A DNA stretch of 64,000 bases from Pseudophaeomoniella oleicola (lineage: Eukaryota; Ascomycota; Eurotiomycetes; Phaeomoniellales; Phaeomoniellaceae): NCBI GenBank assembly GCA_003868215.1, contig QWDQ01000069.1:1-64000 (forward strand), in the 5' to 3' direction. The notes beneath the pieces were generated by a model. The model saw nothing but the letters and a program-made list of their open reading frames with translations, had not been told where the DNA came from and did not search any database. The number at the start of each line of letters is the position of its first letter. The first letter of the stretch is position 1. Below are positions 10,061-22,289 of the stretch, one piece after another. The position numbers and the translations under genes were made by a program.

Positions 10061-12568
10061 ATGCTCGATACAACGAACAAAATGGCACCGATAGCGAAAG
10101 TGAACCCTGAACACGTTCAACTCGTGGACGAGTATCTCACTAAAGCGACATGGAAAGGATCCGAGAATGCAAACTCCACTTATTCGCATCAGGGACTAAT
10201 GCAATACATTTCTGGGCATGTCATCGCCGAATATTGGCTCGACCACATCTACACCGAAGAAGTCCGTCGTTACAGCAAGCAGAATCGCTTCCATATCCAC
10301 GATCTCGGTTTTCTGAGCGCCTACTGCTCAGGATGGAGCATCGAGGACCTTCTACTGCAGGGGTTCGGTGGAGTCGAAAACAAAGTCCAGTGTAGGCCAC
10401 CCAGCCACCTCAACACTGCGCTGAACCAGGCTGTGAACTTCTTGTTCACGCTACAAGGAGAGCTTGCCGGCGCGCAAGCCCTATCCAACTTCGATACATA
10501 CTTGGCGCCTTTCATTCGCCATGACGGCTTGACATACGTGGAAGTGTTCAAATGCGTACAGAGTTTCGTATATTCACTCAATGTGCCTACAAGGAGTGGC
10601 TTCCAGGCGCCATTCACCAATATCTCCCTGGATCTGATGTGTCCTAAGAGTCTCGAGGGACAGCCGGTGATCATTGGAGGAAAGCCGCATGAGTCGTGGA
10701 GATATGACGATTTTCAAGATGAAATGGATATCATCAATCGCGCCTTCACCGAGGTAATGGTTCAAGGTGATGGCAATGGCAACATTTTCTCGTTTCCAAT
10801 TCCGACATACAATCTGTCGCCCCAGTTTGATTGGGAATCTCCGCGCTACGAACCCATATGGGCGATGACCGCCAAGTACGGAGTGCCGTATTTTGCAAAT
10901 TTCATCAACAGCGATCTCAATCCCGAGGACTTTCGATCGATGTGCTGCAGACTACGACTCGACATACGTAAGCTTCACAACCGAGGAGGTGGCTTGTTCG
11001 GTTCTACTCCATTGACAGGCTCAATTGGAGTTGTCACGGTAAATCTTCCAAACATCGCGATGCGGTCCTCCGGGACAAAGGAATCATTCTTAGCCGAGCT
11101 CAGCGACACACTTCGCGTGGCGAAGGACTCACTGGAAATCAAAAGAAAGATTGTCGATGGGCAGTCTGCACTGTACCCATATGCAGCACAATACTTATCC
11201 GTCATCAAGAAGCGAACGGGTTCGTACTGGACGAACCATTTCAGCACGATTGGAGTAGTTGGGATGAACGAAGCCCTGATTGAATTGTTCGGGAAGGGAA
11301 TTACGGAAAGTAAGGACTTCGCATGCGAGGTTCTAGAATTCATCAAGGATCAGCTTCAAGAATTCCAGAACGAGACGGGAAGCCTCTTCAACCTGGAAGC
11401 TACTCCAGCAGAAAGTACGGCATATCGGCTAGCTCAGCGTGATAGCGAGCTGTTCCCGGAACACAATGTTCCCAGCTTTTACACAAACTCAACAGCACTT
11501 CCGGTGGATGCGACGGATGATCTATTCGAGGCTTTGAACCATCAAGAGGAATTGCAATGCTCATACACAGGAGGCACAGTATTCCATGCCTTCTTGGGGG
11601 AACGACTTCCTGGATGGAAACAAGCACGAGACCTTGTGCGAACAATAGCTTCGCGATACCGCATCCCATACATCACGCTGTCACCAACCTTCAGCATCTG
11701 CAAAACACACGGATATGTCAATGGAGAATCGCCGCAGTGTCCGAAGTGTAAGGAAGACTGTCTAGTGTACTCGCGTATCGTGGGTTACTTCCGACCGACC
11801 AGGGACTGGAACAAGGGTAAGAACGAGGAGTTCGCCCGGCGCAAACTTTACCGGTATGAGAGTACGCTTGCAATCGAAGACAAGAAAGGCCCACTGGAAG
11901 TTACCACTGTCCCGGACTTTCCGGTCGCCGGGTTTATCAAGAACACATTCAGTGATTACCCAGGGAAGATTCAAGCTTCAGTCATGTTTACGTCACGCTG
12001 CAATCTCTCATGTCCGTGGTGTCACAATGGCCCCGTCGTACGTGGCGAATGTGAAACCGTCACGACTCAGGACGTTATTGATTACATTACCACCTCGGGT
12101 CACAAGAACCTTGTAGTGTCTGGCGGCGAGCCAACCATACATGCCGAACTCCTTCCTTTCCTCCGGCTTCTCAAGAAGTCGGGCATCAGTGTCAAATTAG
12201 ATACAAACGGAACTTCTCCAGATGTTTTGCGCCAGGTCTACTCGGAGAAGTTGGTTGATTTCGTGGCAATGGATATCAAGTGCGCCCTTGAGAGATACAA
12301 ACAAGTGGCGGGGAAACGTGTGGATGTGCATGTGTTGGAAACCAGCATCAAGATGATCAAAGAATCCGGTGTCCCGTACGAGTTCCGCACCACTGTGGTA
12401 CCGAAGCTCGTCGACATGGAGGACTTGATGGCCTGTAAAGATCTCGCAGGTGGCAAACTCACCGTCCAAAAATTCAGACCCGGCCAAACGAACTTGGCCA
12501 AGCGCTTCCGGGACTGCGCTCCACACACCGAGGAAGAGTTCAAGACCATGGTTGCCCAGGTAGCTTGA
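10061..12568 (+). CDS. nrdDG: Fused anaerobic ribonucleotide reductase (NrdD) and radical-SAM activase (NrdG)
   Basis: One intronless frame of 835 residues. Residues 1-600 are a class III (oxygen-sensitive, glycyl-radical) ribonucleoside-triphosphate reductase, which makes dNTPs without O2. Visible elements are Cys111 (ENKVQC), the active-site block SMCCRLRLD with Cys295/296, RGGGLFG and TGSIGVVTVNLP. A zinc site uses Cys547, 560, 563 and 567, followed by RIVGYFRPTRDWNKGK, where Gly575 is the expected radical site. After a linker of about 25 residues, 622-835 form an NrdG2-type activase: AGFIKNTFSDYPGKI, the [4Fe-4S] motif CNLSCPWC (Cys647/651/654, CX3CX2C) and SGGEPT (687-692). The activase would use SAM to make the glycyl radical. 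Codon 8 (10082) has a slightly better start context and is an alternative start. In bacteria the two are normally separate genes. Flanking genes are clearly fungal and split by introns, so transfer from a prokaryote is likely. The low-potential electron donor is unknown. Confidence 0.95.
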   Translation: MLDTTNKMAPIAKVNPEHVQLVDEYLTKATWKGSENANSTYSHQGLMQYISGHVIAEYWLDHIYTEEVRRYSKQNRFHIHDLGFLSAYCSGWSIEDLLLQGFGGVENKVQCRPPSHLNTALNQAVNFLFTLQGELAGAQALSNFDTYLAPFIRHDGLTYVEVFKCVQSFVYSLNVPTRSGFQAPFTNISLDLMCPKSLEGQPVIIGGKPHESWRYDDFQDEMDIINRAFTEVMVQGDGNGNIFSFPIPTYNLSPQFDWESPRYEPIWAMTAKYGVPYFANFINSDLNPEDFRSMCCRLRLDIRKLHNRGGGLFGSTPLTGSIGVVTVNLPNIAMRSSGTKESFLAELSDTLRVAKDSLEIKRKIVDGQSALYPYAAQYLSVIKKRTGSYWTNHFSTIGVVGMNEALIELFGKGITESKDFACEVLEFIKDQLQEFQNETGSLFNLEATPAESTAYRLAQRDSELFPEHNVPSFYTNSTALPVDATDDLFEALNHQEELQCSYTGGTVFHAFLGERLPGWKQARDLVRTIASRYRIPYITLSPTFSICKTHGYVNGESPQCPKCKEDCLVYSRIVGYFRPTRDWNKGKNEEFARRKLYRYESTLAIEDKKGPLEVTTVPDFPVAGFIKNTFSDYPGKIQASVMFTSRCNLSCPWCHNGPVVRGECETVTTQDVIDYITTSGHKNLVVSGGEPTIHAELLPFLRLLKKSGISVKLDTNGTSPDVLRQVYSEKLVDFVAMDIKCALERYKQVAGKRVDVHVLETSIKMIKESGVPYEFRTTVVPKLVDMEDLMACKDLAGGKLTVQKFRPGQTNLAKRFRDCAPHTEEEFKTMVAQVA

Positions 12569-19179: not shown

Positions 19180-22100
19180 ATGGCGCCAAATCATCCGGCG
19201 GCAATGCGCTTTCTTGAACCGCATTGGAACTATCTTCTGATCGCGGCTTCGGTAGCCGTTGCACTCCTGGGAGCTTTTACATCTACCCAATTGATGTGCC
19301 AAGCAAGAATGTCGCGCTACCTATCCGGGGTCATCATATGGGTTACTCTGACTAGTTTGACCTTTGGATTCTGCTCTATATGGAGCCTCCACTTTGTTGC
19401 GATGTTGGCCTGCGAGCTGGATCTGCCGATAGGATTGGATGTAGGATGGACGATACTCAGCGCCTTCCTAGCGGTAATCTTTACTTTCATCGCATTGGCC
19501 TCAGATCTGTTGTGGGAGAGATATCAGCGTCAGAAGCGCAGACAACAAACAGCGCAGCGGCGGAAGCCCCGTCACCTACAGTCGAATGACCGTATGTCGT
19601 TAGGACCGCCAGGGTCGGAAGAGACCGAAGGACTGTTGAGCTCTTTCCGTCTCAACATATTCCATAAACAGAGCGACCCGCTCACATCTGATGGGGCTTC
19701 CCAAGCACCCGGGGGATCTCTTTCGCTATCCGCCAGTGGAGGGTTTAACGTGTCTACCGCGCCAATCAAGGATCCATCTGGTGTCCCTTCCTCAGCGATC
19801 CGGTCAAAGATGCTCGAGCCTTCAGTGTTGCAACCTCCCAACCGGCGCCTCTCGTTTGTAGACAGAGTCTCACACGTCGACGAAGTAGAAACAGTGTATA
19901 TGGATGACTATGGAAGAGATGAGGACATGGATGAAAGCAACCCGACGTCGGAAGAGAGCTCGAGCAGGTATACAGGATCGCGCCATTCTTCTGGTGTAAC
20001 ATCAGATACGAGTTTGTCTGGTCTTGGTGGATTAAGTAGTGTAAAGCCCCTCAAAGAGAAAGCATTCGGGACGAAAAATCTGTTCAGCGTAACTGCGATC
20101 GTTCTATGGGATGGCCTGACGTTTCCCAATATCTCAAAAGGGTTTTTCTGGTCCCTAGCGATAACAAGCATGCATTATGTCGGAATACATGCATTGCGGA
20201 TACCGCAAGGGTTGGTTACGCTCTCAACGGGTTTTGTTATTCTTTCTGCTGTGATCAGTTGGCTGGTCTGTTGTATTGGCAGCATTCTGATGGCTCAGAT
20301 GGAGACTCATCTAGGTCGGCAGCTCTTATTTGCAGCAGTCGCTACAGTTGGGGTTGCAGCGATGCACTTTACAGGTAAGTTGCTCTGGTTCTAACGTCTT
20401 ATTCACGCTGACAACCAAATGCAGGAATGAGGGCTGCAACATTTTGGTCTTTTAGCCCACCGTCCGATGAGAAGACCAGAGGATACCCGATAGAACTGCC
20501 CATTGCAATAGGATCAATCGCAATAACAACTTGCCTAGCGGCCAATGGATTATTGGCTCATTCTGCGACCGTAGCACGTAACAAGCTCGCAGAAGTTGTA
20601 CGGACGAGAAAAAAGCTGTGGGCAGCAATCGCGCAAAAGGAGAACGCAGAAGCTGCGGCGTTGGCGAGGAGTGAATTCATCGCTTCAGCATCGCACGAAA
20701 TTCGCACTCCTTTACATCAATTGCAGGGATATGGCGACTTGCTCTCAAGGACGAAGCTTACCGAGGAAGGTCGCCTACTGCTATATGCTATTCAGGATGC
20801 CACAAGGACGTTATCCTTGATCACAACCAATGTTCTTGACTGGTCTAGGCTGGAGAAGGGTGAAGCCGTCTGTCGCCCAACAGCTTTGGACGTAAGGAAT
20901 GTTTGCGAATCGGTCATTAATCTCCTCCCCAACAGAGATGATGACGTCGATGTCGAGCTCCTTGTCGCGGTAACCCCTGGGGTTCCTCGTTCGCTTTTCA
21001 TCGATGAGACGTACCTGCACCGGATCATCATGAACTTGGTCTCTAATGCACTCAAATTTACGTCAACCGGATACGTGCTCTTACTCATGGACATGCAACA
21101 TGGCAGTCTTTTTATAACAATCGCAGACACTGGCATTGGAATACCAGAGTCTTTCCTGCCGGAACTGTTCGAACCTTTTAAACAGGCTCAAACAAGAGGT
21201 GCGCAAAGAGGTACAGGGCTCGGACTGAACATCGTAAAACAGCTTCTAGAGAAGATGCAGGGGACAATATACGTGGAAAGCAAGTACAAGGACGACCCCA
21301 GCATTGGCCCCGAGAATGGTGGCACAAAATTCACTGTCAGAATACCAATTCAATCCACGGCAGCTATACAGGCTCCCGCTCCTCAAGAGCGGTCGACAGT
21401 GGCGTTGGTCAGCGATCATAGTCGCCGTCTGACGGAGGGCTTCCGCGTGGCTTGGGACGCTTACAACGTCGACGTCCATCCGGTCAGTGACATCTCTGAT
21501 ATATCACCTGCTTGGAGCTACGTCTGGGCGGACGCATCTTACCTCAAGGCCCATCAGGATCTTGTTCCTCAGTTGGCAGATGGAAACTGGCTCGTCCTAG
21601 TACCTTATGACAACGAGGCTTCACTGTATGAAGTTCTTGGTAGCTCACCTGCGCGGCAGTTCCTTCCTATCCGCAGGCCCTTGATATGGCATCGCATTGT
21701 AGACAGACTGGGTAATGGAAATCGTGGAAATCGTGGAGCCGGGAGCGCAGAGACCGGGCCACGAATGGTCCGCTTTGCCTCGGAGGTCAATATATTCGGT
21801 GGTGCTGATGAGCACAGTATACCTCCGGATGTGTTTCCGTCATCACCCGCTGCCTCTTCATCGGTAAATCCTCCATCAACCACCCCCAAAACCGTCTTGC
21901 TGGTCGAGGACAACAAGATCAACCAGAAATTGGGTGCGAAGATGCTGAAGACGCTCGGATATGAGGTTCTCTTAGCCAGTGATGGGCAAGACGCCATCGA
22001 CATGGTTGTCGAACACGATCATACCATCGATCTGATTCTCATGGATCAATCGATGCCCCGAAAAGACGGGCTGATGGCAACGAAAGAGATTCGGCGCTTG

Positions 22101-22289
22101 GAAGACGACGGGACACTCAAGGGGCGGCGAGGCACGGGTGGAAGACGACCGATCATCGCGGCTACAGCTGTCGTGGGGCCGCGAGCCGAGATGATGTGTA
22201 GACAGGCTGGCACTGATGGGTTCCTGGCCAAGCCCTTGAGCCTAGCACGATTGAAAGAGGCATTGGACATGTTTCTAAAGGAGGAGTGA
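19180..22289 (+). CDS. Hybrid histidine kinase with MHYT membrane sensor domain
   Basis: Two exons (19180-20374, 20425-22289; 50-nt intron with GCTGAC branch) give 1019 residues. The N-terminal half is membrane-embedded, with MHYT-type motifs SLHFVAML (His71), MHYVG (331-335) and AMHFTGM (394-400). These are split by a hydrophilic Ser-rich loop of about 200 residues. The kinase follows: H-box ASHEIRTPLHQL (His489), N-box RIIMNLVSNALKF, G-boxes IADTGIGIPES and GTGLGLNIVKQL. A C-terminal receiver has LLVEDNKINQK, phospho-acceptor Asp939 (ILMDQSMP) and the conserved Lys in LAKPL. All phosphotransfer residues are present, so it should be active toward a histidine phosphotransfer protein. In bacteria MHYT domains are proposed to sense O2, CO or NO through bound copper; the ligand in fungi is not known. 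Confidence 0.93.

Follow-up and report, generated by a model that had tools for sequence, protein, structure and literature searches.

Known eukaryotic NrdDG fusions

Genes in which a class III ribonucleotide reductase (RNR), NrdD, is fused to its radical-SAM activase, NrdG, have been known in eukaryotes since 2010. In the part of their account cited here, Lundin et al. (PMC3019208) report NrdDG fusions from Fusarium, Gibberella, Nectria, Schizosaccharomyces japonicus, and Phytophthora, and draw from eight class III genes the inference of one bacterial transfer. Other eukaryotic acquisitions of nrdD are described for anaerobic gut fungi (PMC6712302, PMC10978972), and an independent NrdD-NrdG acquisition and fusion is described for Trepomonas (PMC4967989). 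The anaerobic adaptations reported for S. japonicus include acquired anaerobic deoxynucleotide synthesis, although the text prints “Class-I” (PMC8520639). Among the matches listed, no biochemical study of a fungal NrdDG enzyme was found in the openly licensed literature. Here, we analyzed an NrdDG gene of the ascomycete Pseudophaeomoniella oleicola, located in a stretch of 64,000 nucleotides (hereafter, the window) of contig QWDQ01000069.1 (assembly GCA_003868215.1). It is a genuine and probably functional further member of the published eukaryotic clan, and the novelty suggested by the original prediction was anticipated in 2010. What is new here is a corrected set of motifs, the loss of the ATP-cone, an NrdD2-type active site, a wider host list, and the lack of fusion in all 28 bacterial loci open to judgement.

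As in the clan of Lundin et al. (PMC3019208), NrdD precedes NrdG in one frame, the hosts are fungi and oomycetes, the ancestry is bacterial, and the sequences form a single clan; the present analysis adds to the cited account a further ascomycete host, the ATP-cone loss, the NrdD2-type residues, and the variation of the linker. Bacterial NrdD proteins of the PRK08270 type (for example, those of Thermoanaerobacterium, Bacteroidota, and Patescibacteria) share with the P. oleicola protein 53–58% identity over the NrdD half, the MCCR motif, the Glu aligned to Glu446, and the zinc ligands, but have a separate NrdG2 gene (28 judged loci) and begin with an ATP-cone some 100 residues long. The NrdD of Thermotoga maritima (4coi, 4u3e; PMC4493059) is more distant (about 24% identity), with SCCR in place of MCCR and a separate activase. 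The Trepomonas sp. PC1 protein is likewise a eukaryotic class III RNR fused with its activase, although in the cited text this fusion was assembled from three transcripts (PMC4967989). Unlike the NrdG2 half, the Escherichia coli pyruvate formate-lyase (PFL) activating enzyme (3cb8) is a separate protein with another target enzyme.

The fused gene and its relatives

The gene is a single intronless frame, as originally predicted, in which an NrdD half (residues 35–597) is followed by an NrdG2 half (residues 622–835), both scoring above the curated cut-offs of their families (Table 1). Indeed, the NRDD domain is full-length (601 bits, profile positions 1–562 of 562), the NrdD half scores 488.1 bits against a TIGR02487 cut-off of 326.35, and the NrdG2 half carries the CxxxCxxC motif. 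The predicted fold agrees with the solved structures of NrdD and of the PFL activating enzyme. Across the aligned fused relatives the linker ranges from 6 to 61 residues, excluding P0056, a short gene model with a linker of 0.

Table 1. Positions in the window of the NrdDG gene, its domains, and its active-site residues
Feature	Position	Strand	Remarks
NrdDG gene, class III RNR fused with radical-SAM activase	10061..12568	+	835 residues; other start 10082 (Met8)
NrdD catalytic half, glycyl radical enzyme, residues 35–597, without N-terminal ATP-cone	10163..11851	+	
NxN flap Asn36-Ala37-Asn38, covers substrate in NrdD	10166..10174	+	Asn36 and Asn38 nearly invariant; role as described in PMC11226230
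Cys89, bottom-face cysteine of the reductive half reaction (= T. maritima Cys125)	10325..10327	+	Cys in 65/65 clan and 55/55 bacterial rows
Cys295-Cys296 of the MCCR motif: Cys296, thiyl position; Cys295, extra NrdD2-type cysteine	10943..10948	+	Cys in 64/65 clan (1 gap) and 55/55 bacterial rows
Glu446, candidate NrdD2-marking active-site Glu	11396..11398	+	Glu in 65/65 clan and 55/55 bacterial rows
Zinc site Cys547-x2-His550-x9-Cys560-x2-Cys563, ahead of the glycyl radical loop	11699..11749	+	Conservation counts; zinc binding predicted from family
Gly575, glycyl radical residue in RIVGY	11783..11785	+	Gly in 63/65 clan (2 gaps) and 55/55 bacterial rows
Linker, residues 598–621	11852..11923	+	Predicted model of low confidence at 601–615
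NrdG2 radical-SAM activase half, residues 622–835; Cys647-x3-Cys651-x2-Cys654 and SGGEPT	11924..12565	+	

The protein search scored 8000 candidates, of which the best 120 were listed. The clan comprises 64 of these 120 (P0001–P0063 and P0065), all at the top, and 59 of the 64 carry both Pfam domains, which is at odds with the rarity that had been supposed. Among the matches listed, the closest are P0001 (84% identity) and a protein on a 422-kb contig of a Cirrosporium novae-zelandiae metagenome-assembled genome (MAG; 81%), both fused; over the NrdD half alone, identity to the nearest relative is 88%. The clan hosts include Cirrosporium (MAG), Phaeoacremonium, Fusarium, Neonectria, Xylariaceae sp., Ascosphaera, Brettanomyces, S. 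japonicus, and Phytophthora, together with one EukProt transcript, and some relatives lie on long contigs, such as those of Dactylonectria (3.6 Mb) and Xylogone (8.2 Mb). Many clan rows are metagenome proteins, for which “eukaryotic” is inferred, as is “bacterial” for such rows outside the clan. One record bears the name Pleurotus but falls among hypocrealean rows (support 80), and its label may be wrong. P0061 and an NrdG-only piece, P0126, both found on contigs of 18,016 bases, could belong to a single gene as two of its frames.

Active-site residues

The motif alignment consisted of 120 rows, 65 from the clan (the P. oleicola protein included) and 55 bacterial or bacterial-like (P0064 among these). 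The active-site residues examined were conserved in every row with a letter at the respective place. In the phmmer alignment, Cys89 pairs with T. maritima residue 125, a cysteine described as conserved throughout known RNRs (PMC4493059). The original prediction had named Cys111 among the NrdD residues; this residue is Cys in 61/65 clan rows but in only 9/55 bacterial rows, and the invariant bottom-face residue is Cys89 instead. Similarly, the zinc site, read at first as four cysteines, is Cys3His in the alignment. The assignments of Gly575 as the glycyl radical residue and of Cys295 and Cys296 as an adjacent cysteine pair held in all rows with letters there. In the SCCR motif of T. maritima, each of the two cysteines is reported to be essential (PMC4493059). 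The place aligned to Glu446 is Glu in T. maritima and Tyr in 9d3x, the S. thermophilus enzyme that uses formate; Glu451 is also invariant (65 clan and 55 bacterial rows).

Loss of the ATP-cone

No match to the ATP-cone family PF03477 was found in the NrdDG protein. Ahead of the place aligned to residue 17, the 64 clan database rows have 0–47 residues, against 99–136 in the 55 bacterial rows. Among the best 120 relatives, PF03477 is listed for P0064 and P0067–P0120 and for no clan row. The host genome contains a single ATP-cone match, below the family cut-off, which adjoins the gene for class I alpha on a different contig. Devoid of this domain, NrdDG should be free of the dATP on/off switch.

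Phylogeny and origin

We compared the phylogenies of the two halves. The FastTree tree of the NrdD half (141 rows, including 21 of 30 bacterial loci; L016 and L024–L031 were excluded as duplicate, cut, split, or insertion-bearing) separated the P. oleicola protein and the 64 clan rows from 76 bacterial or bacterial-like rows with branch support of 100. The tree of the NrdG half (204 rows, including 22 of the 28 bacterial loci with an nrdG frame) grouped 61 clan rows and six short pieces with support of 99, in a tree flagged for joined long branches; the four clan rows without an NrdG half (P0049, P0055, P0061, and P0062) were left out, and one of the seven short pieces, P0127, fell outside the clan. 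Furthermore, a mixture-model tree of the NrdD half on 46 rows again split the clan from eight bacterial rows (100/99). Since both halves fall in single well-supported groups, they point to one shared history, and the trees agree with the bacterial ancestry that had been proposed. Within the 46-row tree, the branch setting ascomycetes and metagenome rows against the oomycete group is supported at only 81/90, and therefore we assign no direction to the transfer between fungi and oomycetes. Rows P0060, P0063, and P0065, all on long branches, are uncertain in both placement and host.

The bacterial loci came from a scan with six patterns derived from the window protein alone, and the sample is therefore biased. 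Most scan matches among them were Patescibacteria, which does not imply a role as source. In 28 of the 30 loci nrdG is separate from nrdD, and none of these 28 is fused; in the other two (L025 and L030) the contig ends before the end of nrdD, so they could not be judged. The nrdG start usually lies at most about 60 bases from the end of nrdD, overlapping it in L005, L009–L011, L014, L026, and L029 and lying further away in L008, L017, and L031. With the two genes so close or overlapping, a fusion would need little beyond the loss of a stop codon.

Several eukaryotic fusions arising from different bacterial donors are conceivable, given the independent fusion described in Trepomonas (PMC4967989) and the metagenome protein P0064, which is fused, retains its ATP-cone, and nests among bacterial rows. 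However, this scenario is very unlikely, since in the tree of each half one well-supported group unites the P. oleicola protein with its relatives from fungi, yeasts, and oomycetes, and the 46-row tree repeats this result for the NrdD half. The clan would most simply derive from one bacterial nrdD-nrdG operon, through acquisition, fusion, and later spread or loss. As the clan is common to yeasts, S. japonicus, oomycetes, and metagenome sequences, the transfer would be old or would have been followed by spread between eukaryotes; a gain by a filamentous ascomycete, as first proposed, is the wrong scale.

A viral scan kept 80 of 368 matching loci, of which 77 had a usable NrdD frame. We also considered a viral source that was already fused: L080 and L086 were flagged automatically, but their tails are thioredoxin-like and not NrdG, and this candidate was rejected.

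Host genome and genomic context

Bacterial ancestry and the lack of introns could also reflect an assembly chimera or bacterial contamination. Several lines of evidence speak against it: the two closest relatives are fused as well, that of C. novae-zelandiae on a 422-kb contig; further copies lie on megabase contigs of fungi; and the judged bacterial loci are all unfused. Furthermore, the gene lies on a contig of 117,006 bases whose composition it shares: the GC content at third codon positions is 0.57 in the NrdD half and 0.62 in the NrdG half, against 0.53–0.62 in six neighbouring frames, and the codon-usage correlations of the halves (0.86 and 0.77) compare with 0.66–0.88 in the same frames. 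A histidine kinase of ascomycete type lies 8 kb downstream, its named relatives among the matches listed (at most about 59% identity) including those of Zalaria, Knufia, Neophaeococcomyces, Myriangium, and Exophiala, and the window also holds WD40 and ERG4/ERG24 frames. Contamination or chimerism is thus extremely improbable, and the ascomycete host first assumed agrees with the ascomycete-like neighbours and with close relatives on long contigs of fungi. It is the independent homologues in other fungi and the fungal genes nearby, rather than reads, that answer the concern about a chimera raised in the original prediction.

The host genome (26.1 Mb, 112 contigs) contains one NRDD match and no PFL-like match, and retains a class I RNR, with one large-subunit and one small-subunit match.

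At 19180–22286 of the window, an MHYT-domain frame precedes a frame that encodes a hybrid histidine kinase (HisKA, HATPase, and response regulator). The two are probably exons of one gene, since many listed relatives hold all these domains in one protein.

Two matches to the squalene-cyclase family were found in the host genome. The first (L035, contig C39) is a frame of 862 residues with a DxDDTA motif (DVDDTA), which we take to be that of squalene-hopene cyclases; the frame continues past the cyclase, presumably as a glycosyltransferase-like region, and in our view resembles triterpenoid glycoside synthases and the fused triterpenoid synthase-glycosyltransferases of antifungal pathways. The second has the motif DCTSE, presumably that of oxidosqualene cyclases. 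Neither is clearly a sterol bypass, and we do not claim one for this host.

Reductant of the enzyme

NrdD2 enzymes are described as having a third cysteine and a glutamate in the active site (PMC4493059). In the clan, the third cysteine is present as Cys295, and the invariant Glu446 is, by sequence alignment, a candidate for the NrdD2 glutamate. Formate failed as reductant of the T. maritima NrdD, for which the active component was a protein fraction (PMC4493059).

Viral relatives bear on the same question. The viral contigs were selected partly by the MCCR motif, which is found in 75/77 of their NrdD frames, and 15/77 have a CxxC-bearing tail of more than 60 residues. Nine of the ten long-tailed viral NrdD proteins that were scanned had a glutaredoxin or thioredoxin Pfam match above the curated cut-off, several of them barely, and one had none. 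Viral MCCR-type NrdD proteins with such a C-terminal domain were observed at L073, L074, L076, L078, L080, L081, L085, L086, and L092. As viral relatives carry these fused domains, a thioredoxin-family reductant is favoured for the subfamily by analogy, coherently with the original proposal that linked the cysteine pair to a thioredoxin-type reductant and with the cited description of NrdD2 (PMC4493059). In the fungal protein the C-terminus is occupied by NrdG, and therefore the reductant partner would have to act in trans.

The alternative is a formate-using class III RNR, as in E. coli, T4, and S. thermophilus. Besides PFL, fungi can have other sources of formate. Formate is also the reductant of the best-studied NrdD enzymes (PMC4390871). 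Nevertheless, we consider this alternative unlikely, given the third cysteine and the additional Glu, which no clan row with a letter at these places lacks, the failure of formate with the T. maritima enzyme (PMC4493059), the thioredoxin-family domains fused to viral relatives, and the lack of a PFL-like match in the host genome.

Proposed mechanism

Taken together, the gene very probably encodes a working NrdDG, a class III RNR fused to its own activase and nuclear in an ascomycete, which would act as follows. In the absence of oxygen, the [4Fe-4S] cluster of the tethered NrdG2 would cleave S-adenosylmethionine and NrdG2 would take a hydrogen from Gly575, on the C-terminal loop just ahead of the linker. 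The glycyl radical would generate a thiyl radical on Cys296, which would activate the ribonucleotide; electrons would come from Cys89 and Cys295, to be re-reduced by a thioredoxin- or glutaredoxin-family protein acting in trans and not by formate. The activase comes immediately after the glycyl radical loop, tethered by 6–61 residues in fused members, an arrangement that would suit activation within one chain. The sequence, the domains, the predicted fold, the conserved residues, the clan membership, and the fungal context are direct results of this analysis, whereas we infer the radical chemistry, the single-chain activation, the reductant, the lack of dATP control, and the use at low oxygen.

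Several observations weigh against this account or parts of it. Four of the 65 clan rows (P0049, P0055, P0061, and P0062) lack the NrdG half, so that either the clan also includes unfused members or some of its gene models are faulty. Glu446 is equated with the NrdD2 glutamate (Glu438 of N. bacilliformis) by alignment only, and E. coli thioredoxin was not accepted by the T. maritima NrdD (PMC4493059). An ATP-cone match is also absent in the viral relatives L081, L085, and L094, so that the domain has been lost outside the fusion as well, and its loss may predate it. In a FastTree tree of 176 rows rooted with T4-like NrdD, the clan (22 rows, support 99) stands beside a mixed group of 111 bacterial and viral rows, and thus we name no donor. 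Finally, because the host keeps its class I RNR, the NrdDG gene may be dispensable.

This last point would also fit a relic, or a repurposed protein that has lost ribonucleotide reduction, as would P0055, the S. japonicus protein among the matches listed, which consists of NrdD only; for that species, however, a further copy that is fused is reported by Lundin et al. (PMC3019208). Against a relic stand the clan-wide conservation of the active-site residues, the full-length open frame, and the 88% identity of the NrdD half to its nearest relative, and we regard loss of function as quite unlikely.

Other NrdD architectures

In Candidatus Nealsonbacteria (L018, L020–L024, L027, and L028), NrdD is split into two adjacent genes followed by nrdG (for example, L021:3692–5704 and L021:5709–6080). 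The large protein ends past its own CxxC...CxxC pair, and the small protein (92–123 residues) has a second such pair and then the glycyl radical loop YSRIVGYLRP. The split genes are the only NRDD matches in each of the eight genomes, whose completeness is unstated. A free-standing glycyl radical subunit of an RNR would be unusual. The split may reach beyond Nealsonbacteria, since in four viral contigs (L070, L097, L101, and L104) the glycyl radical loop is encoded by a short frame of 62–78 residues that is distinct from the main NrdD frame.

The NrdD frames of L027, L028, L029, and L031 are 988–1546 residues long, with large in-frame insertions that are probably inteins; a weak LAGLIDADG-like match was found for L027 and none for L031. 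A Deltaproteobacteria MAG (L002:5500–5900) has one in-frame TAG between the NrdD zinc site and the glycyl radical loop, which could reflect splitting of the gene, recoding of the stop codon, or a sequence error.

Implications

A self-contained class III enzyme is a direct candidate for the means by which some fungi copy DNA in conditions where class I RNR, which requires oxygen, fails. Self-activation and DNA replication under strict anoxia, both put forward in the original prediction, may follow from such an enzyme. Should the reductant indeed be of the thioredoxin type, the enzyme could use electron carriers of its host, and its transfer between eukaryotes would then be easy. Tentatively, and aware that the balance is somewhat against so broad a statement, we propose that the clan is a compact one-gene module for oxygen-free dNTP synthesis, released from dATP feedback by its lack of an ATP-cone, self-activating within one chain, and driven by the ordinary cytosolic thioredoxin or glutaredoxin of the host, and that this module is more common in ascomycetes and other microbial eukaryotes than the published counts cited here. 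If true, these features would jointly explain why NrdDG, and not the formate-using type, has spread among eukaryotes without pyruvate formate-lyase.
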